Positions 3,417 to 28,907 are shown, numbered from the stretch's first letter. The stretch: 64,000 bases of DNA from Victivallis lenta (GCF_009695545.1 NZ_VUNS01000004.1:1-64000); one strand, 5' to 3'. The notes: generated by a model from the letters alone, not told the origin. Program-made: numbers and translations.

Positions 3417-4145
3417 TTATTTCCATAAGGTCGGCGGCTGGCCGTCGAGTCCGAAGAGGCGTGTCAGTCCACGATAACAGACGTCAGCGCGGGCGGGGCT
3501 GTATTTCTTGGCGTTTTCGGTGAACGCATTCAACAGACTCCAGCGGGTCGGCTCGGCGAACTCTTCATGCTGCGGTTCTTTGAACTCCCTGAAGATCGGC
3601 AGAATGTCCGAGGAGTTAACGGCCCCGGCTTCTGCTGCTTTCACGATAGCGATACGGGCAGCATCTTCCCGAACGTACAGACACTTCAAATCCTCGGCCA
3701 CAGTTTCAAGCGTCAGGAACTCCGTTTCGAGTTCTTCGACCGCTTCAAGGACAAGGCCGTTCAGCTCAATCCGCGAGGTATGCCGCCGCTTCAAAACCAT
3801 GCTGCCGCCCAGCATGAGGTTGCTGCACACTTTTACACAAAGCCCCGCCGCCAGTCCAACCGCGATACTCTGATCGTGCGAATTACGGATGCCGATACAC
3901 CGGCTCCATTCCGGCGAATGCGTTTTATTGATCCGCATGAATCCGAACATCCGCTGACCGTCACGGGCCAGGCCGTACTGTTCATCGAGAATCTGCCAGT
4001 TGTGCGCCTTGACCACATCGGTTACGGCGTCGATCACCTCACAGTGCGGTACCGGCTTCCAGCTCGCGGTAGCGGTCGGAGTCGGCACCAGTGCGATTTC
4101 GTCGCGCCCGACGAACTTTCCTTCACACATCGTCAATCCCATCAT
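3417..4145 (-). CDS. DUF932 phage/plasmid-type protein
   Basis: 242 aa. It resembles the DUF932 (phage/plasmid-like) family, whose molecular role is unclear but which occurs mainly on plasmids, phages and integrated elements. Seen in it: an N-terminal segment ending in PHCEVIDAVTDVV, a central FMRINKTHSPEWSRCIGIRNSHDQS typical of the family core, and a helical C-terminal half. ATG 4145 (or the ATG three bases on) follows GGAGGTGAG. It is the last gene of a three-gene operon with the nuclease gene, separated by one base, and is followed by a strong terminator. Confidence 0.75.
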   Translation of the reverse strand: MMGLTMCEGKFVGRDEIALVPTPTATASWKPVPHCEVIDAVTDVVKAHNWQILDEQYGLARDGQRMFGFMRINKTHSPEWSRCIGIRNSHDQSIAVGLAAGLCVKVCSNLMLGGSMVLKRRHTSRIELNGLVLEAVEELETEFLTLETVAEDLKCLYVREDAARIAIVKAAEAGAVNSSDILPIFREFKEPQHEEFAEPTRWSLLNAFTENAKKYSPARADVCYRGLTRLFGLDGQPPTLWK

Positions 4146-4146
4146 C

Positions 4147-4950
4147 TCACCTCCATTTCTTCAGATGCCACTGCCCGCAACGATCCCGATACGGACATTC
4201 GTTACAGGCGAACGATGTTTCATTCGGCAGGAACACGCCTTTGCTGATCGCGTACTGCGCCCGGTTCGCCAATGCCTCGAAGCGCCGGAAGTCATGAAAG
4301 CCGCGACTGGTGTAGTGGCTCTCACAACCCGGATTCTTTGTCTTGGTGATGACATCGAACCGAAAGAGCGGAGCCGTGCCGTTCTGCTTCTCATAGGCGT
4401 AGCTGAACACGGTCGCCTGCAAATCGCGATCGGCTTTCCCGGCAGGCCAGCGGCTCGCGGAGGTTTTCCAGTCCACGATACAGGCGTCCCGCCCATCCTG
4501 AACCACCAGATCGAACTCGCCGATCAGGGGCTTGTCCAAACCGGGAACGTCGATTCTGAACGCCTGGGCAACGCCCTTGATCGTGTAGTAATCCGACCAG
4601 TTCGCCAGCGCCGCATCCAGCATCTTCACGGCAAGATCGATCACCGTGTCGAAGTTCTCGCCTTCCTTGTAGATCAGGTTCGGCGTCGCCTCGGCTTCGA
4701 TTTTGAACGCCTCTTCAAACCGGTCAACGATTTCATCACGGGTCAGCGAGCCGCCCATCATGCACTCCCACGCCTGAGCGGTCAACGCTGAATGAAACGC
4801 CTTGCCGAATGGTAAGCAGACCGAAGTCCGTTCGACCTCGGCCTGATCCACGTACCGGTACATGAATTGCGCCTGACAGATGTTGAGATACGTATTCAAC
4901 GCCGAATACGACCAGTGCGGTTCCTGCCGCAGTTCATCGAGCGTCGCCAT
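4147..4950 (-). CDS. PD-(D/E)XK nuclease (RecB/Cas4-like) with probable 4Fe-4S site
   Basis: 267 aa from the ATG at 4950, chosen because GGAGGGCGGCG precedes it and it overlaps the upstream stop by one base. The nuclease core is visible as IGEFDLVV followed by ACIVDWKTS, the GxxD...DxK pattern of RecB-family exonucleases. One early cysteine (NICQAQFMYRY, about residue 25) and a C-terminal C-x2-C-x5-C (CNECPYRDRC) match the layout of Fe-S-cluster nucleases such as Cas4 and AddB. A QATVFSYAYE segment resembles the family's QxxxY motif. It is likely an element-encoded DNA-processing exonuclease. There are no CRISPR genes or arrays nearby, so a Cas4 role is unlikely. Confidence 0.8.
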   Translation of the reverse strand: MATLDELRQEPHWSYSALNTYLNICQAQFMYRYVDQAEVERTSVCLPFGKAFHSALTAQAWECMMGGSLTRDEIVDRFEEAFKIEAEATPNLIYKEGENFDTVIDLAVKMLDAALANWSDYYTIKGVAQAFRIDVPGLDKPLIGEFDLVVQDGRDACIVDWKTSASRWPAGKADRDLQATVFSYAYEKQNGTAPLFRFDVITKTKNPGCESHYTSRGFHDFRRFEALANRAQYAISKGVFLPNETSFACNECPYRDRCGQWHLKKWR

Positions 4951-19402: not shown

Positions 19403-19954
19403 ATGCGTCATAGAGTTCATACGTTCAAGGTCGGCCGTTCGAGCGCTCATCGCCGTGCGATGCTGGCCAACATGGTCAGCAGCCTCTTCACCAACGGCCA
19501 GATTCAGACGACGCTGGTCAAGGCCAAAGAGGCGCGCCGCTTCGCCGAGAAGCTGATCACGATCGGCAAGAAGGGCGACCTGCACCGCCGCCGCATCGCG
19601 GTTGCGAAGCTGCGCGACAAGGATGCCGTCAAGCTCCTGTTCGATGAGATCGCCCCGTCCTACGAGGGCCGCAACGGCGGCTATACCCGGATTCTGAAGC
19701 TCGGCGTGCGTCGCGGCGATGCGACCGAAATGTGCCTCCTTCAGCTGGTCGAAAAGGCCAAAGTGAAGGAAGAGAAGGCCGGAAAGAAAGAAACCGCCAA
19801 GAAGGCGCCGAAGTCCAAGAAGGCCGAAGCCAAGCTCGAAGAAGTCGCGGCGGAAACCGTCAAGGCCGAAGAGGCCAAGGCGGAAGAGCTGAAGCCGGAA
19901 GTGAAGGCCGAAGAGGCCGAAGCCAAGGCGATGGAAGCTCCGAAAGCCGAATAA
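19403..19954 (+). CDS. rplQ: 50S ribosomal protein L17 with charged C-terminal tail
   Basis: 183 aa. Residues 1-117 are L17: MRHRVHTFKVGRSSAHRRAMLANMVSSLF, KAKEARRFAEKLITIGKKG, and the GGYTRILKLGVRRGDATEMCLLQLVE end. The remaining ~65 residues are a low-complexity Lys/Glu/Ala tail (KKAPKSKKAEAKLEE..., EVKAEEAEAKAM). E. coli L17 has 127 residues; acidic/alanine tails of this kind occur in several phyla. It is the last gene of the operon, followed by a clear terminator. Confidence 0.96.
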   Translation: MRHRVHTFKVGRSSAHRRAMLANMVSSLFTNGQIQTTLVKAKEARRFAEKLITIGKKGDLHRRRIAVAKLRDKDAVKLLFDEIAPSYEGRNGGYTRILKLGVRRGDATEMCLLQLVEKAKVKEEKAGKKETAKKAPKSKKAEAKLEEVAAETVKAEEAKAEELKPEVKAEEAEAKAMEAPKAE

Positions 19955-19980: not shown

Positions 19981-20013
19981 GACTCCGGAAGAGATTCCGG
20001 AGTCTGTTTTTTT
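19981..20013 (+). terminator. terminator of the alpha operon
   Basis: Perfect 10-bp stem GACTCCGGAA (19981-19990) and TTCCGGAGTC (19995-20004), four-base loop, then TG and seven T. It lies 26 bases after the rplQ stop. Confidence 0.92.
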
Positions 20014-20054: not shown

Positions 20055-20309
20055 TCACTCCGTCAGGAATCCCCGCCGGCGCAGCTGCGCCAGGAAGGTC
20101 CGCAGATCGGCCGGCGCCTCCGGCGGCAGCCGGGTGCTGCGGGCGAGTGAGTTCAGAAGTTCAGCCTCGTCCCGTTCCCCGGCCGCGATCAGTTCGCAGA
20201 TCGCGGCAGCCGTGGGGTTCAGAGCGAATACTTCACCGGTATCGGGGTGAAACAGCAGCCCGCTGCCGTCAAACTCCCTGCGGAACACGATTTGCGGATT
20301 CAGAAACAT
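20055..20309 (-). CDS. PqqD-like peptide-binding protein (RRE)
   Basis: 84 aa. It has the PqqD-family winged-helix pattern: VFRREFDGSGLLFHPDTGEVFALNPTAAAICELI, then a helix pair ending FLAQLRRRGFLTE. In RiPP systems this domain (RiPP recognition element) grips the leader of the precursor peptide and presents it to the modifying enzyme. Here it is the last gene of the operon, 12 bases after the kinase-like gene, with AAGGAATTCC before the ATG. Its likely partner leader is the YEKPEL motif of the peptide at 22222-22362. PqqD-like proteins are also found with HPr-kinase-related proteins in other genomes. Confidence 0.85.
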   Translation of the reverse strand: MFLNPQIVFRREFDGSGLLFHPDTGEVFALNPTAAAICELIAAGERDEAELLNSLARSTRLPPEAPADLRTFLAQLRRRGFLTE

Positions 20310-20321
20310 GAGAGGAATTCC

Positions 20322-21197
20322 TTATCGGTTGCGCCGGGAGACGACCGCATCCAGAACGCTCCCGGGAATGTCGTTGAGATCGGCGTAATATGCCAGCGGA
20401 AAAAAGCTTCGGGCCAGCCGGCCGATCAGCGCCGCATTGCCGAGCCTGATCTTCCTGCCCGTCTCCTGCGGCAGCAGCCGCAGCGGCTGCCAGGAGGCGT
20501 GCTCGGCCGAATTCAGCAATGCAGCTTTCCATTCGGCGGCCGGAATGGCTCCGGCATAGCCGACACCCCGTTCCGAACGCGACAATACCAGCAGCCATCT
20601 GACCGGCAGACCGTGCTCCGCCGGAAAACGACGGTCGCAGAGACGGCCGTATTCGCTCCAGGTCGGCAGCGGGTACGCGGCAAATGCCTCTCCGTCTTCG
20701 CACAACAGAAGCCAGTCATCGGCGCAGCCGCCTCCGCCGTGCAGCCGATGACGGCGCAGGGTCGTGCTTTTTCCGGTTCCTCCGGGCGCCAGCAGGACGG
20801 CTGCGCTGCCGGAGTGCTCCAGCAGCGCGCCGTGCAGGAGCAGAAAACGCCTCCTTCCTCCCGGCCCCAGCAACCCTGCGGCCAGCAGAAACTTGCAGCA
20901 ATTCGCCCAGGCGACTCGGCTCTCTGCCGCTCTCGGGTCGGTCTGCAGGATATACGCCCCGGCCTCCCCTCCCTCGAAGAGGCGAAAGCCGTGTTCCGCC
21001 GCGATGAATTTTCCGTCTCCGGGCGCAGGAGAAGGGGGAGAGATCAACACGGCAGTTGCGGGTACGGCCGGAACCGGTTCCGGCCGCAACTCCAAAACCG
21101 CCGCCAATTTTCCCAGGATCGAAGCGGCGGCATCCCCACGGGCCTCCCAGCTGACCGCACCGGAAGCAATGCGCAAATTAAGAAAACAGCTCTTCAC
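20322..21197 (-). CDS. HPr kinase-related P-loop protein (RiPP-associated)
   Basis: 291 aa from GTG 21197. This start overlaps the radical SAM stop (GTGA) and has AAGGA seven bases upstream; the longer frame would run ~100 bases into the previous gene. The central part reads LLLHGALLEHSG..AVLLAPGGTGKSTT, an HprK-type P-loop (residues ~139-145), followed by a CADDW segment (the family's Asp before the second metal-binding region) and YPLPTWS. HprK-related proteins next to PqqD-like proteins are known in peptide-modification loci. In some lasso-peptide clusters such kinases phosphorylate the peptide. The substrate here is unknown; the precursor has few Ser/Thr (S7, S18, S25, T39). Confidence 0.72.
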   Translation of the reverse strand: MKSCFLNLRIASGAVSWEARGDAAASILGKLAAVLELRPEPVPAVPATAVLISPPSPAPGDGKFIAAEHGFRLFEGGEAGAYILQTDPRAAESRVAWANCCKFLLAAGLLGPGGRRRFLLLHGALLEHSGSAAVLLAPGGTGKSTTLRRHRLHGGGGCADDWLLLCEDGEAFAAYPLPTWSEYGRLCDRRFPAEHGLPVRWLLVLSRSERGVGYAGAIPAAEWKAALLNSAEHASWQPLRLLPQETGRKIRLGNAALIGRLARSFFPLAYYADLNDIPGSVLDAVVSRRNR

Positions 21198-22225
21198 AGC
21201 AGATCCTTCAGCAGTTTTTTCAACTCCTTCCGGCAAATGCGCCCTCCCGCGCCGGACGGACAATACTGGCGGCAGTACCAGGCAAACTCGCACCCGGCAT
21301 CGCAGGAGGGTTCAGGCAGCTCCGCCCTTCCCGTTCCGATCTGCCAGAGCAGGGCTTTGCGTTCGGCCGAATTCCGCCAGATTCGGGCGACGGAGTCGGC
21401 ATTGATCCGGCCCAGCACCTTCCGATCACAGGCCCGGCATGGAATCATGACTCCGTCAGCCCGGACGGCAAGCGTGTTCCACACTTCGCCGCATCTGCGG
21501 GCCGGAGAGCCGCCGGCGGCTCCCCGCCGTATTTCATTCAGGAAGCGGTAGACGAAAGAACCGGGGAGAACCTTGGGCAGCTCTTTCCGATCCCGTTCGA
21601 ACTGCCGGATCAGCCGTGCCGTCTCCGGGATGGTGAGCGGACGCAGGCGCTCCGGCCACTCCCGGCCGACAGCCGAAACCCGGCTGAAGATGATCCGGTC
21701 GATATACTCCTGCCGGTTCAGGAAATGAGCCAGTCCGACAGCCTCGGCGGAATTGAATGCGCCGACCGTCACATTGACCGTGACGGGAACGCCGTACCGG
21801 TGCAGCAAAGCGGCTCCGGCCAGCGCCTTCTTCCACATGCCGCGCCCCCGGACCGAATCGTGGGTCGCTTCGAAGCCGTCGATCGAAAGCTGAACCCGGT
21901 CGCACCGGCCGGAGCGGCCGAGATATCCGGCCTGCTCGCGCGTGATCAAAACGCCGTTGCTGTAAATGCAGAACCGCATCCGGTTTGCCCGGACCCGTTC
22001 CAGCAGGCGCAACAGGTCCGGGCGGCAGAAAGGTTCTCCGCCGAGAATGTCGACCCGGAAGACCTTCTCCCGGCCGAGCTCATCCAGAAACCGGAGCCAC
22101 TCCGCCGCCGGGAGATCGGGTTCCCGATTCCCGGCAAACTCGCGACAGTAGCAGAACGGGCAATTCAGGTTGCACCGGCTGGTTATATACAGAACGGCTT
22201 TGTCGGGGGCCGAACTGCTGTTCAC
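21194..22225 (-). CDS. radical SAM/SPASM peptide-modifying enzyme
   Basis: 343 aa from GTG 22225, which overlaps the stop of the 46-aa peptide gene by four bases. The radical SAM cluster motif is C18-x3-C22-x2-C25 (CNLNCPFC), followed by the GGEP motif at 62-65 and the VQLSIDG strand. A SPASM domain with eight cysteines occupies the C-terminus (C245, C263, C266, C308, C312, C318, C322, C331), for two auxiliary Fe-S clusters. Such enzymes make thioether, C-C or other crosslinks in ribosomal peptides. The immediate upstream gene encodes a 46-aa peptide with two cysteines, the probable substrate, and the next two genes encode a kinase-like protein and a PqqD-like protein. Confidence 0.9.
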   Translation of the reverse strand: MNSSSAPDKAVLYITSRCNLNCPFCYCREFAGNREPDLPAAEWLRFLDELGREKVFRVDILGGEPFCRPDLLRLLERVRANRMRFCIYSNGVLITREQAGYLGRSGRCDRVQLSIDGFEATHDSVRGRGMWKKALAGAALLHRYGVPVTVNVTVGAFNSAEAVGLAHFLNRQEYIDRIIFSRVSAVGREWPERLRPLTIPETARLIRQFERDRKELPKVLPGSFVYRFLNEIRRGAAGGSPARRCGEVWNTLAVRADGVMIPCRACDRKVLGRINADSVARIWRNSAERKALLWQIGTGRAELPEPSCDAGCEFAWYCRQYCPSGAGGRICRKELKKLLKDLL

Positions 22226-22362
22226 TGAAACTCCGGCGCAAAATCGGTATCGCAGCCGGCATCCTCATTCACGATCCCGTTCAGACAGCTCTCTCCGCGG
22301 ACAATTCCCGACTCCGGCAGAACCAGCTCCGGCTTCTCATACGAAAACAACTCTTCTTCCAT
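22222..22362 (-). CDS. candidate RiPP precursor peptide
   Basis: 46 aa from ATG 22362, 27 bases after the large beta-solenoid gene and overlapping the radical SAM gene by GTGA. It starts MEEELFSYEKPELVLPESG: Y8-x-x-P11-x-L13 matches the YxxPxL leader motif that PqqD-like RREs bind in lasso and other RiPPs. The rest is acidic with C26 and C37 separated by ten residues and several glycines (G19, G23, G29, G36), a plausible core for a radical SAM crosslink. It has no signal peptide and does not resemble a structural protein. Assignment rests on size, composition, leader motif and position; no mature product is known. Confidence 0.72.
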   Translation of the reverse strand: MEEELFSYEKPELVLPESGIVRGESCLNGIVNEDAGCDTDFAPEFQ

Positions 22363-22389
22363 TTTTCAACTGTTCCATTCCCTGATTGA

Positions 22390-25314
22390 TTATGCAAGCT
22401 GCCTGGTGAGCCTGAGATCGTTATCGTCCCCGGCGGAAAGCCTGAATCCGCCGGCGCACCAGGCGCCCTCCTTCCACTCGGCCTCGACGCCGTTGAACCA
22501 TACGGAGGCGTCCGCCAGATTCGTGAACCAGCCGGCGTCTCCGGCATCGATCACCGTCCAGCCGGAGCCGGAAATCGCCTCTTCCTCGAAGGTGAGCCTG
22601 ATCGTGTCCCCGGAAAAGTCGTTTCCGGCGAACAGGTCGGCCGTCAGCGATGCCCGGGAGGGATCGCCGAGTTCGAACTCCCAGTCCGTTACATCGCTCA
22701 GATTCCGCTCCATCGCAGTCCACCGGACGCTGCTGCCGGAGATGACGATGCGGTCGAATCCCGCGATGCTGACGGCATTGAAATTCCCGGTGAAACGGTC
22801 GAACACCAGCGAAGAACTCCCCTCCACAAAGCTGATCATGGTCGTCGCCGCGGAGGAGTCACCGACCACATATCCGGAAAAATCCAGATTGTTTCCGTCG
22901 CCGGAAAACGTGACCGTCGCATCCCCGGAAACGCTGCCTTTGCCGTACGAACAGGCATAGATATTCAAGTCGCCGATATTGACGAGGCTGCCGCCGCAGT
23001 CGATGGATACCGATGTATTCCCCAGAATATGCGTCTGCGCGGCATATCCGAAACTCGTCGCCATGGCGCCGCCGTAGATATCCCCGGTGAAGCTGCCGCC
23101 GCGGATCTCCACAGCCGAATTTCCGACCAGCTGATAGTACCCCCCGAAACTCGCCCCGGCTCCGGAAACAGTGCCGAAGGCGGAGCCGGGAGCGTCGATC
23201 GTCACGCTCGTGTCTCCGGTCCGCTTCACCGTCGCCGCACCCGTCGCGGACGAATAAGCGACATAATCGCCGATGACGGAAACCTTGCCGCTTCCGGCGC
23301 CGAGAATCGCAATCCGGCTCGACCCCTCCACCTCCAGAGTACCGTTCCGGACGACTCCGCCGCGGACCGATGTGACGCTGCCGGTCGTATTCAAGGTCAG
23401 AACGGTTTCGCCGGTATGATAAACCATGCGGGAAGTGTCGATTTCAAACCCGGCATACACCTGGCCGGCCGAGGTCGCGCCAGAAACCGTCAGAGCCAGG
23501 TCGCCGGTGAAATCGGCCATGGACTTGCCCGTGACCGCGCCGCCGCCGAAAATCTGTTGGAGATTGGTGAAAACGACACTGTCCAGCACGACGTCAGATG
23601 CAATGTCATGGCCTGCCGCCGAATATGCGGCATTCTCCCAGAGGCTGCCGCCGTACAGATTGGATTCCCCGGAAAATTCGACCGCAAGATGGTCCAGCGT
23701 CACCCAATGGCTGCCGAGATAGAGGCTGCCGGCCGCAGTCAGCACCGCACCTTCCTCCCCCTCGCCGGAAATCCGGCAGTTCTTGATGACATCATCCGCC
23801 TCGAGGACATGTCTGCCGGTCTCCACGCTGATCAGCGCGGGCTGTTCGACGATGCCGGCTTCGTACGACATATCCTTAATCGCGATCATGGCGTCGGAAA
23901 TCGTCGCGTAGTTGCTCGCCACAACGACATGCTCCCTGACCCCTTCGACGACGAGGTAAAGATCGTTATCGCTCACGGCCAGTACGCCGTGTGAACCGGC
24001 GAAACGAAAATCGCCGTAATCCACTGCCGCATCCGGGGAGCCGGTATAATCGATGACTCTGATCCGGACCCACTCCACATCCGCCAGACTGCCGTCGAAC
24101 GTGACGATGATCGTTCCGCCGGCGGAATTATCCAGCCGGTCAAGTTTCAGGACGGCATAATTGTCCGCGATATTCTGAATTGCATCCCGGCGCGCCTCCG
24201 AGTCCGCCGGGAGCTCCATCCCCGGCGCAACGGGATCGGAAACGGCGAGATTCAACGAATCTCCGCTCCCGTCGAATATCAGAGAGCCCACCTCCATCAC
24301 CGCTCCGGAAACCCGGATCTCGTCGAAGCCCTTGAGCTCCCCGCCGACGGAGAGGTTTCCCTGCACCTGAATGGAGTCGAAGCCGGAGAGCACGCCGCCG
24401 ACCGAAAGGGTGCCGCCGACATTCAGCACGGTCGCACCGTTCACCGTCACATTCTGAAAACTTGAATCGCTTCTCCCGATCAGCCTCTCCGCAATCACGG
24501 CATGGCCGTCCTTCTCGATATTTACGGTCAGGCCGTCATCGACGGTGCAGTTATAACCGGCCGCATACAGATTTGACATGGTCACGGAGGAAAAAGTCAG
24601 GGAAATGCCGCCGTGAACATCGCCGTTGTAGCCGCCCCCGTAAAAATCCCTGTACTGAACGCCGCCCGGAATGGAGATGTCGATGCTTTCCGCCGTGGAG
24701 GTGTTCCGGCCGATCACATAGTGATCCTGCGGCTCCAGCGATGCGGCCCCGGCGGAACCGGCAGGCGGAACGGCCGGTTCCGGAGCGGCGTCGGGAACCA
24801 TGACTTCCGCCGCCTCCCCCTCCGGAGTTTCCTCCGCGCCCTCCGAAAGAACCGCCTTTTTCCCGAATGCGGGATTGAATGCCGCGGTTTCGGCCATATC
24901 CTCAGGCGTTTCAACGTTCGCGGCCATATGCAAAGTTTCCGCAGAAGATATCTCCGCATCAGTCCGGCCCGCGACCGGCAGGAGCCGGGAGAACCCCGCA
25001 TCGATTCCTGCCTGGACAGTCAGTTCCGGCGCCGGCACAGGTTCCGCAGCGTTACGGCCCGTATCCGCAACTTCATACCCGATCCAGCTCCAAGCGGCTT
25101 GAATGCCAGCCGGTTCGGCGGAAACGGGCTCGGCGGAAACGGGTTCGACGGCGGCAACCGCCGTCCTCTCCGCCCGCTCCAGCCACCCCCCGGCAGCTTC
25201 AGCTCTTCCGTTCCCGGCGGCAATCCGCCTCGAATCATCCCCGGACTCATCTTCCCCGGCGTTCCCGGCGGTAATTTCACCCCATTTTCTGCGTTTCCAG
25301 ATCAATTGACTCAT
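22390..25314 (-). CDS. large glycine-rich beta-solenoid-like protein in the RiPP operon
   Basis: 974 aa, strongly acidic. There is no signal peptide: it starts MSQLIWKRRKWGEITAGNAG. Residues ~50-200 are low-complexity and alanine/glutamate-rich, with VSAEPVSAEPAG repeats. From ~200 on there are recurring short strands with IYGGG/FYGGG turns, alternating hydrophobic residues and phrases such as LSVGGVLSGFDSI repeated as LSVGGELKGFDEI, the look of a right-handed beta-helix of the kind found in surface proteins. No autotransporter barrel or LPxTG is visible; the C-terminus ends RLTRQLA. It ends 27 bases before the precursor gene, so it is transcribed with it. It may be the carrier, target or scaffold of the modification system. 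Family unknown. Confidence 0.7.
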   Translation of the reverse strand: MSQLIWKRRKWGEITAGNAGEDESGDDSRRIAAGNGRAEAAGGWLERAERTAVAAVEPVSAEPVSAEPAGIQAAWSWIGYEVADTGRNAAEPVPAPELTVQAGIDAGFSRLLPVAGRTDAEISSAETLHMAANVETPEDMAETAAFNPAFGKKAVLSEGAEETPEGEAAEVMVPDAAPEPAVPPAGSAGAASLEPQDHYVIGRNTSTAESIDISIPGGVQYRDFYGGGYNGDVHGGISLTFSSVTMSNLYAAGYNCTVDDGLTVNIEKDGHAVIAERLIGRSDSSFQNVTVNGATVLNVGGTLSVGGVLSGFDSIQVQGNLSVGGELKGFDEIRVSGAVMEVGSLIFDGSGDSLNLAVSDPVAPGMELPADSEARRDAIQNIADNYAVLKLDRLDNSAGGTIIVTFDGSLADVEWVRIRVIDYTGSPDAAVDYGDFRFAGSHGVLAVSDNDLYLVVEGVREHVVVASNYATISDAMIAIKDMSYEAGIVEQPALISVETGRHVLEADDVIKNCRISGEGEEGAVLTAAGSLYLGSHWVTLDHLAVEFSGESNLYGGSLWENAAYSAAGHDIASDVVLDSVVFTNLQQIFGGGAVTGKSMADFTGDLALTVSGATSAGQVYAGFEIDTSRMVYHTGETVLTLNTTGSVTSVRGGVVRNGTLEVEGSSRIAILGAGSGKVSVIGDYVAYSSATGAATVKRTGDTSVTIDAPGSAFGTVSGAGASFGGYYQLVGNSAVEIRGGSFTGDIYGGAMATSFGYAAQTHILGNTSVSIDCGGSLVNIGDLNIYACSYGKGSVSGDATVTFSGDGNNLDFSGYVVGDSSAATTMISFVEGSSSLVFDRFTGNFNAVSIAGFDRIVISGSSVRWTAMERNLSDVTDWEFELGDPSRASLTADLFAGNDFSGDTIRLTFEEEAISGSGWTVIDAGDAGWFTNLADASVWFNGVEAEWKEGAWCAGGFRLSAGDDNDLRLTRQLA

Positions 25315-25907: not shown

Positions 25908-28907
25908 TCACTCCTTCCGGCGGCCGCGAACCGGGTCGAACTGCCGGAGCTCCTTCAGGTAGTCGCGGTAGTAGGCGAGATAGAAGGCGAGCGGACGCGT
26001 GAAGTTCCTGCCGACCAGCCCGGCCAGAAACATCTTTGAAATGCTCTTTTCGCGCTTGAGAATATCCTGCGACTTGACGAACTGCAGCCGCTCCTCCGGA
26101 CTCAGCCGCGACATGATGATCCGCATCGCCGTGACCGCCTGCGGCTGCCGCATCCAGATATACATGATGTCCAGCGCATTGACGTAGAAGAGTTTCATAA
26201 GATTGTTCCGCTTGAGCTCCGAAAGCCCGGGGAATGCGTCGTGCGCTTTCATGAGCTCCGGCAGATCCGCCTCCGGCAGCAGGAGCTCGAGCTTCGAAAT
26301 CAGCGCGAAGAGTTCGCGCAGCTTGGTGCGGATATCCGCGAGCCGCGCCGTGATGTTGCGCGTCCGGTCGGCCCGGGCCTCGATGACGCCGCCGATCACG
26401 TCCGACGCGAGTTTCGAGAGGATCGCCGCCCACTGCTGCAGAATCATTTCAATCCCCCGCACGCCGAGCAGGCCGAGCACGCCCCCCAGCAAGAAGTTGA
26501 AAAGCAGCGCCAGCGGAATCGACAACGGAGCCCGCAGCCAGTTCCCCCAGACCGCCGCCTTCGGAAATGCGCGCAGCAGATTATGCCCCATGATATAGAA
26601 GCCGTTCGCAAACGCAATGCCGGTGAACACCAGGACCGGCTGCGACTCCGCTGTCCAGCCGAGCCAGTTGTTCAGGATCACCGTTTTGACCAGCCAATCC
26701 AGGATCGGCACCGAAAGCCCGGTGTAGAAGAGCGAATCCGCCACCCGCTGCCACGAGATGAAATCGTTCCACTTGAGCAGCGGAGAACTCCGCAGCCCGC
26801 CGCCGGCCAGCACCGACTGGATAATGTTCCGCACTCCCGTGATGCCGAGCCAGATCACCGCACCGAAATAGGTCAGGAACCACCAGTCGTAGGAACCGTA
26901 ATAGAAAGTCAGGAACGCCGCCAGAAACCCGATCAGGATCTTGACCGCGATCTTGATGTTGCTGTTCAGGTAGTGCCAGTATTCGCCGAGCGTCGCGACC
27001 GGGCGCGTCAGCGGACTCTCGGGAGGCGGGGACGCGAAGCCTCCCAGCGTCGCAAGATTCCCGACGCCGCGGTCGATGGTCTGCGCCGGGTCCGGACACT
27101 CCCACTTCACCCGGACGTCGTAACCGAACCCGAAACAGCGGCCGACCCGGTTCCAGAAGCCGTGCCCCTCGCGCGGCAGGCAGCTGAGCTGCCGGTAGAC
27201 CGATGAAACGACCTCGAGCAGCTTCAGCTCCGGCAGCATCCCGTGCCGGATCGCCCGCCGCACCGGTCCTGAAAGCGTGTCGACCACCACAAACCCCATG
27301 CCGTGCACCTGCCGCGACGGACGGCTGGCCGAATCGCTGCCGAGCGACGCATCGAGCGGAGCGCGCAGATAGAACTCGAGGAATCCCGACATGTCGCGCA
27401 GAATCTGCCGCAGCTTTTCGACCCGTCCGGTCCGGTCGCTCCGGTCCGAATCGGTCACCCGGTTGATCGCGCGCCGGATCAGGTTCTTGAGCTTGAAGAC
27501 GCTTCCGCTGTTCAGAGCGTGCCGCAGCTGGTTGATGAGGTCGTCGTCCGGGCGCTCTCCGGCGACGTCGTCCTTCAGGTTGAAAATTTCGAGCGTCGTG
27601 ATTTCCCCGCGGCAGTCGTAAAGAATTTCGATCACGTCCTCAAGATGGAGTCCGCTCAGATTCAACGTCATGCGAAATCCGGAGGCAACCTTGTGCAGTT
27701 CGGTGATGAGCTCGTACGGGCTGCTGCGGTTGATCTCGGGCAGGTCGTCCATTTTCGCAGGCGGCAGATCCCAGCGGGTCCGGTCGATATACCGGGCGCG
27801 CAGCAGTTCGCCGGAGAGCGCGCCGAGCCGGGCGCGCAGCTCGCTCAGCCGGGATTCCTCGCCGCTCTTGCGCTCCTTTTCGGCTTCGAGCGCCTCCAGC
27901 CGGGTCAGCAGCTGCCTGCGCACCAGCGTCACCAGCAGCTCCCCGATATGTTCGATCGACGGCTGCCCGTACTGCACGGACGCGAGAAACTCCTCCTTCG
28001 AAACCGGCGGGAGGTCGATGCCGTAAAAAGCGTTGAGCCGGCCCCTCCCCTCGCGGTTGAATTCGTCGAGAATGTCGAGCACGACCTTGCGGCGGAAGTT
28101 CGCGGCCTTGCGGCACTTCCGCGTGAATTCCTCGGTTTTCGGCCGGTCGAGGAACTTCAGATAATCGTTGACGCCCGAAAATCCGCGCGGCGCCCAGATC
28201 ATCTCGATGAACCGGCCGCGGAACAGCGAACGGAATTCAACCCCGATGCGGACGTCGACATTCATGATCCGCGCCGCCCGCAGCAGCTCTTCGGCCGCCT
28301 CGCGCGGAACGTAGTTGTAGTAGATGACCTGCAGCTTGACGATGCCCTTGATCCACGCATCCATGATAAGGTGGGTCGGCGACTTGCGCCCCTTCGTATT
28401 CGCGTCGTGCACATGCTGGTCAAAGGTGACCGGCGTCCAGTTCTCCGGCATTTCGACCAGATGGTACCGGCGCAGCAGCCGGCGGATGAACAGCGGATTG
28501 CCGAGCATCGCCGTGCGCATGTCGTGCGCGAGGCGCAGTCTCCGCAACGGATCGACCCGCTCGCGGACCAGGTCCTTGATGACCTGCAGAAGCGCGCGGG
28601 CCGTGTTGTAGCGCAGCAGCACGTCGAGCCCCTCGATGACCTCGTCGCGGAGCGCCTGCAGCGCGGCGAGACGCTCCTCCATGGCCGGAACGCCGGCCTC
28701 GAAGGTGTCGAGCAGCCGCAGCATGGTCCGGGTCATCCGGACCGCGCGCGGCTCCGCAAGCTCCCGGATGCCGCGCGGATGCAGATCCTGCGCGAATTCG
28801 GGCGGGCGGCCGCCGCGCGCGCGATAACCGGCCACGGCCTCATCCACGGCGCGCACCAGCTCGTAGTCGGCGGCGTCAAACAGCAATTTCGGTTCCCGGA
28901 ACTCCAT
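25908..28907 (-). CDS. large membrane protein with degenerate PHP-like N-terminal region
   Basis: 999 aa. Residues ~155-245 resemble a PHP phosphoesterase: FDQHVHDAN (163-171) where PHP enzymes have D-x-HxH, then YYNYVPREAAEELL where they have TDHN, and DVRIGVEFR where they have GxE. Several metal ligands are changed, so activity is doubtful. Residues ~330-600 are mostly helical with a leucine-rich-like segment (MTLNLSGLHLEDVIEIL). Four or five membrane helices follow at ~650-690, 725-745, 765-785 and 800-830, then a helical tail. It stands alone, with its own terminator. Function unknown; a membrane-tethered PHP-like signalling or hydrolase protein is a guess. Confidence 0.65.
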   Translation of the reverse strand: MEFREPKLLFDAADYELVRAVDEAVAGYRARGGRPPEFAQDLHPRGIRELAEPRAVRMTRTMLRLLDTFEAGVPAMEERLAALQALRDEVIEGLDVLLRYNTARALLQVIKDLVRERVDPLRRLRLAHDMRTAMLGNPLFIRRLLRRYHLVEMPENWTPVTFDQHVHDANTKGRKSPTHLIMDAWIKGIVKLQVIYYNYVPREAAEELLRAARIMNVDVRIGVEFRSLFRGRFIEMIWAPRGFSGVNDYLKFLDRPKTEEFTRKCRKAANFRRKVVLDILDEFNREGRGRLNAFYGIDLPPVSKEEFLASVQYGQPSIEHIGELLVTLVRRQLLTRLEALEAEKERKSGEESRLSELRARLGALSGELLRARYIDRTRWDLPPAKMDDLPEINRSSPYELITELHKVASGFRMTLNLSGLHLEDVIEILYDCRGEITTLEIFNLKDDVAGERPDDDLINQLRHALNSGSVFKLKNLIRRAINRVTDSDRSDRTGRVEKLRQILRDMSGFLEFYLRAPLDASLGSDSASRPSRQVHGMGFVVVDTLSGPVRRAIRHGMLPELKLLEVVSSVYRQLSCLPREGHGFWNRVGRCFGFGYDVRVKWECPDPAQTIDRGVGNLATLGGFASPPPESPLTRPVATLGEYWHYLNSNIKIAVKILIGFLAAFLTFYYGSYDWWFLTYFGAVIWLGITGVRNIIQSVLAGGGLRSSPLLKWNDFISWQRVADSLFYTGLSVPILDWLVKTVILNNWLGWTAESQPVLVFTGIAFANGFYIMGHNLLRAFPKAAVWGNWLRAPLSIPLALLFNFLLGGVLGLLGVRGIEMILQQWAAILSKLASDVIGGVIEARADRTRNITARLADIRTKLRELFALISKLELLLPEADLPELMKAHDAFPGLSELKRNNLMKLFYVNALDIMYIWMRQPQAVTAMRIIMSRLSPEERLQFVKSQDILKREKSISKMFLAGLVGRNFTRPLAFYLAYYRDYLKELRQFDPVRGRRKE

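Follow-up and report, generated by a model that had tools for sequence, protein, structure and literature searches.

Among described RiPP systems, the closest to the locus analysed here are the linear polyphosphorylated peptides (LPP) encoded by LppA/K/B/S/N/D in Paenibacillus alginolyticus (PMC13381572). The LPP leader reads YxxPxVLxHQxIxFETxxS, its YxxP being bound by the RiPP recognition element (RRE) LppB; LppK adds phosphates at core Ser3, and the leader is removed, with the help of the RRE, by LppS, a SpI-like homologue of archaeal-type signal peptidases (PMC13381572). LPPs are described as restricted to Bacillota, the clusters for LPP and for paeninodin lie in capsule loci and have no known physical partners, and the biological role of these phosphorylated RiPPs is stated to be unknown (PMC13381572). 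A second relative is the SynChlorMet (SCM) cassette, represented by the profiles TIGR04248-04251; a literature search for that name found no papers. Here we describe, in a 64,000-nucleotide stretch of Victivallis lenta (GCF_009695545.1 NZ_VUNS01000004.1:1-64000, hereafter the window), an operon in which an LPP-like enzyme set is joined by a radical SAM enzyme, in genomes absent from the LPP paper (PMC13381572), and in which the precursor gene stands behind the gene of a large beta-solenoid protein.

Five minus-strand ORFs were confirmed by ORF calling between positions 20055 and 25314, in the order and with the spacing that the first-pass annotation had given: a 27-base gap, GTGA overlaps at 22222-22225 and 21194-21197, and a 12-base gap. 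The leading gene (22390-25314) encodes a 974-aa protein ending in ...RQLA, to which a C-terminal beta-solenoid domain is assigned from the ORF, six paralogues and an AF2 model. It is followed by a 46-aa RiPP-type precursor, MEEELFSYEKPELVLPESGIVRGESCLNGIVNEDAGCDTDFAPEFQ (22222-22362), which belongs to a conserved peptide family and displays Y8, P11 and L13 in its leader, a predicted cleavage/phosphorylation region at G23-E24-S25, and two cysteines, C26 and C37. Neither this peptide nor the 974-aa protein has a match in Pfam. Next come an ScmE-like radical SAM/SPASM peptide maturase of 343 aa (21194-22225), the GTG start of which overlaps the peptide stop, and an HprK-like Ser kinase of 291 aa (ScmC/LppK-like, 20322-21197), recognised by profile and fold and starting at the GTG at 21197, since a longer ORF from the GTG at 21293 would run into the radical SAM gene. 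The last gene (20055-20309) encodes a discrete RRE of 84 aa, PqqD-like by profile (ScmD/LppB/lasso B1-like). The layout is not due to chance, because it recurs twice more in the genome and because a peptide is found behind related solenoid genes far more often than behind controls. Upstream of the solenoid gene, a 999-aa protein (25908-28907, minus strand) has no NCBIfam match and a single weak Pfam match, below the cut-off. At the opposite end, an inverted repeat (19981-20004) with a plus-strand T-run after it lies between the end of the cassette and a plus-strand gene ending at 19954, and is interpreted as a putative terminator of the genes on the plus strand.

The assignments made earlier for the three enzyme genes were upheld, with different degrees of support. 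The radical SAM/SPASM enzyme matches PF04055 (E 9.5e-27) and PF13186 (SPASM, E 8.4e-7) and scores 193.5 bits against TIGR04250 (ScmE, cut-off 400); in a tree of 41 radical SAM proteins, in which ScmE and ScmF each form one clade, separate from the other, enzymes of the window class group with ScmE (support 94/93) yet outside the ScmE clade. The HprK relationship of the P-loop protein is weak by sequence (48.9 bits against TIGR04249, ScmC, cut-off 125) and is supported by fold, the AF2 model (16-row alignment, pLDDT 86, pTM 0.85) having as its best PDB matches HPr kinase/phosphatase (1knx/1ko7, E 7e-5), followed by PEP carboxykinase; TM-scores over the whole chain are low. In an alignment of 16 sequences the P-loop GK, a DD pair and a PTWS motif are invariant; both the alignment and the model were built from a 287-aa version of the kinase, against a true length of 291 aa. 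The PqqD-like protein matches PF05402 (E 5.3e-13), exceeds the cut-off of TIGR04353 (49.5 bits, cut-off 35) and stays below that of TIGR04248 (ScmD, 48.8 bits, cut-off 100), and a profile of 10 relatives matches the RREs of lasso peptide systems, TbiB1 (5v1u, E 2.4e-10) and TfuB1 (6jx3). Judged from these comparisons, the enzymes are diverged relatives of ScmC, ScmD and ScmE, below the curated cut-offs, and no new kind.

Fuller cassettes in related genomes bring the locus closer to LPP. In L155 the solenoid, kinase, RRE, signal-peptidase-like, NTP transferase and ABC exporter genes lie in a row, the transferase matching NTP_transf_5 and the exporter having MsbA as its best NCBIfam match, below the cut-off. 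L152 has the same order up to the NTP transferase, the exporter being absent from the fetched stretch, and L188 presents solenoid, peptide, kinase, RRE, ABC exporter and a peptidase that scores 51.8 bits against TIGR02228 (archaeal signal peptidase I, cut-off 51.85). A signal-peptidase-like gene is also present in the genome of V. lenta, beside the C33 cassette. The first-pass annotation had called the whole an undescribed RiPP system; of this, the link to the solenoid stands and is what is new. The enzyme part of that claim falls, an undescribed enzyme set being ruled out by the SCM relatives and by the match of the fuller cassettes to the LPP gene set (PMC13381572).

The precursors share the consensus Y-E-K-P-E-L-x-[E/D]-F-x-x-W, followed by G-x-[S/T]. 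Positions outside the pattern used in the search are conserved among 29 peptides (E+1 in 19, K+2 in 16, E+4 in 19, F+8 in 18 and W+11 in 14), and, with one near-copy excluded, 23 of 31 peptides have G-x-[S/T] after the leader, compared with 5.1 +/- 2.0 in shuffled tails, where none of 2000 shuffles reached 23. This last feature had escaped the first-pass annotation. In the window peptide S25 lies 17 residues past Y8, and the Ser of the LPP leader motif 18 residues past the Tyr; owing to this near-coincidence, S25 is proposed as the phosphosite and G23 as the residue after which cleavage would occur. Many of the cores are short, acidic and Gly/Pro-rich. The conservation suggested earlier for Y8, P11 and L13 (L or I) was recovered, that of C26 and C37 as individual positions was not: the cysteines track the presence of the radical SAM enzyme. 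All nine peptides directly beside a radical SAM gene of the window class have a core Cys, as opposed to none of the six beside a kinase without radical SAM (Fisher p 2e-4); where neither gene is adjacent, some peptides have core cysteines and others do not. Cysteines are thus ruled out as a signature of the family, being consistent only in the radical-SAM-linked cores, where the pairing of a Cys-containing core with a SPASM enzyme is that of sacti- and ranthipeptides, and the linkage supports an action of the enzyme on Cys-containing cores. A YxxPxL-type frame, as anticipated, is found directly upstream of the related radical SAM genes examined (nine listed), and it is found behind many solenoid genes too.

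The pairing of solenoid and peptide is complete in the genome of V. lenta itself. A search with the window protein retrieved six solenoid genes, which have the C-terminal ~280 aa in common, and each of the six (the window, L016, L017, L037, L038 and L039) has a short YxxPx[L/I] peptide encoded behind it, in agreement with the earlier proposal that the cassette is of the RiPP type and that its peptide goes together with the giant protein. In L016 (C3) a solenoid of 1923 aa precedes peptide, radical SAM, kinase and PqqD-like genes, and in L017 (C15) one of 1984 aa precedes peptide, radical SAM and kinase genes; in L037 the genes after solenoid and peptide encode a kinase, a PqqD-like protein and a signal-peptidase-like enzyme, with no radical SAM gene among them, and in L038 and L039 none of these enzyme genes was seen directly adjacent. 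The solenoid N-termini of L016, L038 and L039 contain an HExGHLxGxxH-like metalloprotease motif, and the N-terminal region of the L016 protein has weak matches to Peptidase_M54 and matrixin, below the cut-off.

Outside this genome, the profile of the solenoid C-terminus matches 14 of 61 related genomes. Forty loci were retrieved, and the solenoid ORFs of V. lenta and its relatives were examined for an ORF of 30-90 aa on the same strand that begins no more than 300 nt away and carries Y..P.[LIVM] close to its N-terminus. Such an ORF was present for 24/48 solenoid ORFs and for 4/205 other long ORFs of the same loci taken as controls (Fisher p ~2e-16). The L190 match looks spurious by eye, leaving a convincing peptide within 300 nt in 23 of the 48, and the L016 peptide was missed by the script because of its gap of 313 nt, so that the corrected total is again 24/48; near-copies within this count are L188/L191 and the two L030 pairs. 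A phylum-wide search of new loci added four pairs, in the same family (L232), in another family of the order (L217 and L219) and in another family of the class (L214); no peptide was found at L213, L216, L218 and L220, and at L221 and L225 little sequence was available downstream. No description of the pairing was found in the papers searched, a search for RiPP precursors with type I secretion adhesins returned nothing, and the one paper retrieved for RiPPs and radical SAM enzymes in Lentisphaerae was, judged by its title, on another subject. At L153, an ScmE-like radical SAM frame with an internal stop (4031-4357, minus strand; G029:C13:18390-19350) lies a few kb from a solenoid gene with a Cys-containing peptide behind it.

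Concerning the solenoid itself, AF2 models the C-terminal 311 aa as an all-beta solenoid (pLDDT 90, pTM 0.91), which bears out the fold proposed earlier for that part of the protein; similarity to PDB structures is weak (best E 0.02), with the autotransporter passenger helices of pertactin and Ag43 in the lead. No clear Sec-like start was seen in the solenoids with a full N-terminus, the most hydrophobic being that of L017 (1.74 over residues 19-30), and the window protein has no hydrophobic N-terminus. HlyD (TIGR01843, over the cut-off) occurs in 14/14 genomes with solenoids versus 25/47 of the others (p 0.001), a difference confounded by phylogeny. The V. lenta exporter at L198 is HlyB-type, with a score marginally under the cut-off, and the C39 Cys expected in the T1SS ABC exporter appears to be replaced. 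Such replacement is known from exporters of large proteins with C-terminal signals. The 974-aa protein thus combines the lack of a Sec signal with an exporter in the genome, as looked for in type I substrates, and is presumed to be one. At L198 an RRE gene directly precedes the exporter and HlyD genes, and in G034 (L018) exporter, HlyD, RRE, signal-peptidase-like and radical SAM genes are consecutive on one strand; these are the only two T1SS loci with an RRE gene among those inspected. At L203 (8599-14408, minus strand), an HlyD-like gene and a T1SS exporter gene adjoin an ABC exporter close to the type found in solenoid cassettes.

Taken together, we hypothesize, with a probability of about 0.6, that a phosphorylated and sometimes radical-SAM-modified RiPP is the partner of a giant beta-solenoid protein secreted by a type I system; the individual chemical reactions, the route of export and any physical contact between peptide and solenoid are what we infer from the data above. 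The PqqD-like protein would bind the 46-aa peptide at its YEKPEL leader, the kinase would phosphorylate S25, just past the leader, and the radical SAM/SPASM enzyme would modify C26 and C37 of the core, most likely by a thioether crosslink, a bond type suggested by analogy with related SPASM peptide maturases. The archaeal-type signal-peptidase-like enzyme of the C33 cassette may then cut the leader, probably after the Gly, and an HlyB/HlyD type I system would export the 974-aa solenoid, the modified peptide leaving with or beside it and acting, at the cell surface, upon the solenoid or jointly with it. In the window peptide itself, S25 and the cysteines need not be modified. That the RiPP product is physically joined to the secreted solenoid, or displayed on it, is a further step which we consider rather doubtful; if true, phosphorylated, radical-SAM-crosslinked peptides would serve as dedicated accessories to a structure on the cell surface.

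The locus could also be read as an ordinary, diverged SCM/LPP cluster making a stand-alone secreted peptide, the solenoid being merely co-regulated with it in a surface or competition regulon and no physical partner. The setting of LPP and paeninodin clusters in capsule loci is in line with this, as are the classical SCM cassettes, beside which no solenoid match was found, and the radical SAM plus peptide loci L021, L023, L028 and L029, where no solenoid was recognised adjacent. Likewise, the similarity of the peptides does not follow that of the solenoid C-terminal domains (Mantel r 0.06, 531 of 2000 permutations being as high); no cognate co-variation was found, nor any sign of cognate sequence matching. 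Since, in addition, half of the solenoid family lacks a peptide gene immediately downstream, with many of these cases in G029, the partnership rests on gene pairing and not on sequence co-evolution. Nevertheless, orphan pairs with none of the searched maturation genes adjacent (L038, L154, L157, L165 and L175) hold together, and at L030 an apparent tandem duplication copied solenoid plus peptide, so that we regard mere co-regulation as unlikely, if a reading to be reckoned with.

A different role, in which the peptide serves the secretion or assembly of the solenoid (for instance as a phosphorylated plug, chaperone or timer of type I export) and is not a released product, would suit the single peptide gene placed immediately after a solenoid gene, the nature of many of the cores, and the RRE genes found with T1SS genes in V. 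lenta and G034. The MsbA-like exporter and leader peptidase of the fuller cassettes, however, point to a cleaved and exported peptide, and many solenoids of the same family have none, which makes such a role improbable. It is hardly credible that the small frame is no gene and that the pattern reflects the composition of high-GC downstream regions: the search pattern is indeed loose, as its few control matches illustrate, but the conserved leader positions outside it, the excess of G-x-[S/T] over shuffles, the linkage of Cys with radical SAM and the GTGA coupling to the radical SAM gene all argue against this. A partnership of RiPP and secreted solenoid thus remains the preferred reading. In it, the precursor recurs in association with one large protein, probably a secreted one, which offers a way to ask what these peptides do, and, as the gene pairs persist without adjacent enzyme genes, phosphorylated RiPPs gain a concrete partner to test.

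Compared with known systems, the solenoid resembles HlyB/HlyD type I substrates in being a giant repeat protein without Sec signal, with an HlyB-type exporter in the genome that is apparently devoid of the C39 Cys; it differs from them in that Pfam reports no RTX repeats in the window protein and in that the exporter is not beside it. The operon shares with paeninodin-type lasso peptides a lasso B1-type RRE (TbiB1), a YxxPxL leader and an HprK-like kinase, but no macrolactam synthase (C) or B2 cysteine protease is found among its genes. Among named families, ScmC, ScmD and ScmE match its enzymes best or nearly so, and several classical SCM precursors likewise begin with YxxPxL; those seen have Cys/Gly repeats, unlike the window peptide. 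Classical SCM-type cassettes occur at L042-L059 in genomes of Anaerolineae, Syntrophaceae, Methanospirillum, Chlorobiaceae and Aminicenantes, with YxxPxL starts and Cys/Gly-rich cores at L044 and L045. Classical SCM membership is ruled out by the scores below every cut-off, by the single radical SAM gene of the window, L016 and L017, with no ScmF in the window operon, and by the lack of a solenoid match at classical loci. With LPP the operon has in common a YxxP leader with a discrete RRE, an HprK-like kinase and a Ser at about Y+18, and cassettes of its relatives carry the SpI-like leader peptidase, NTP transferase and MsbA-like exporter; its leader, YEKPELxEFxxW, departs from that of LPP in the remaining positions, a solenoid gene is paired with the peptide and an ScmE-like radical SAM enzyme is added. 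Because the window copy consists of kinase, RRE and radical SAM enzyme only, without peptidase, NTP transferase or exporter, we name it LPP-like and SCM-related and place it in neither family.
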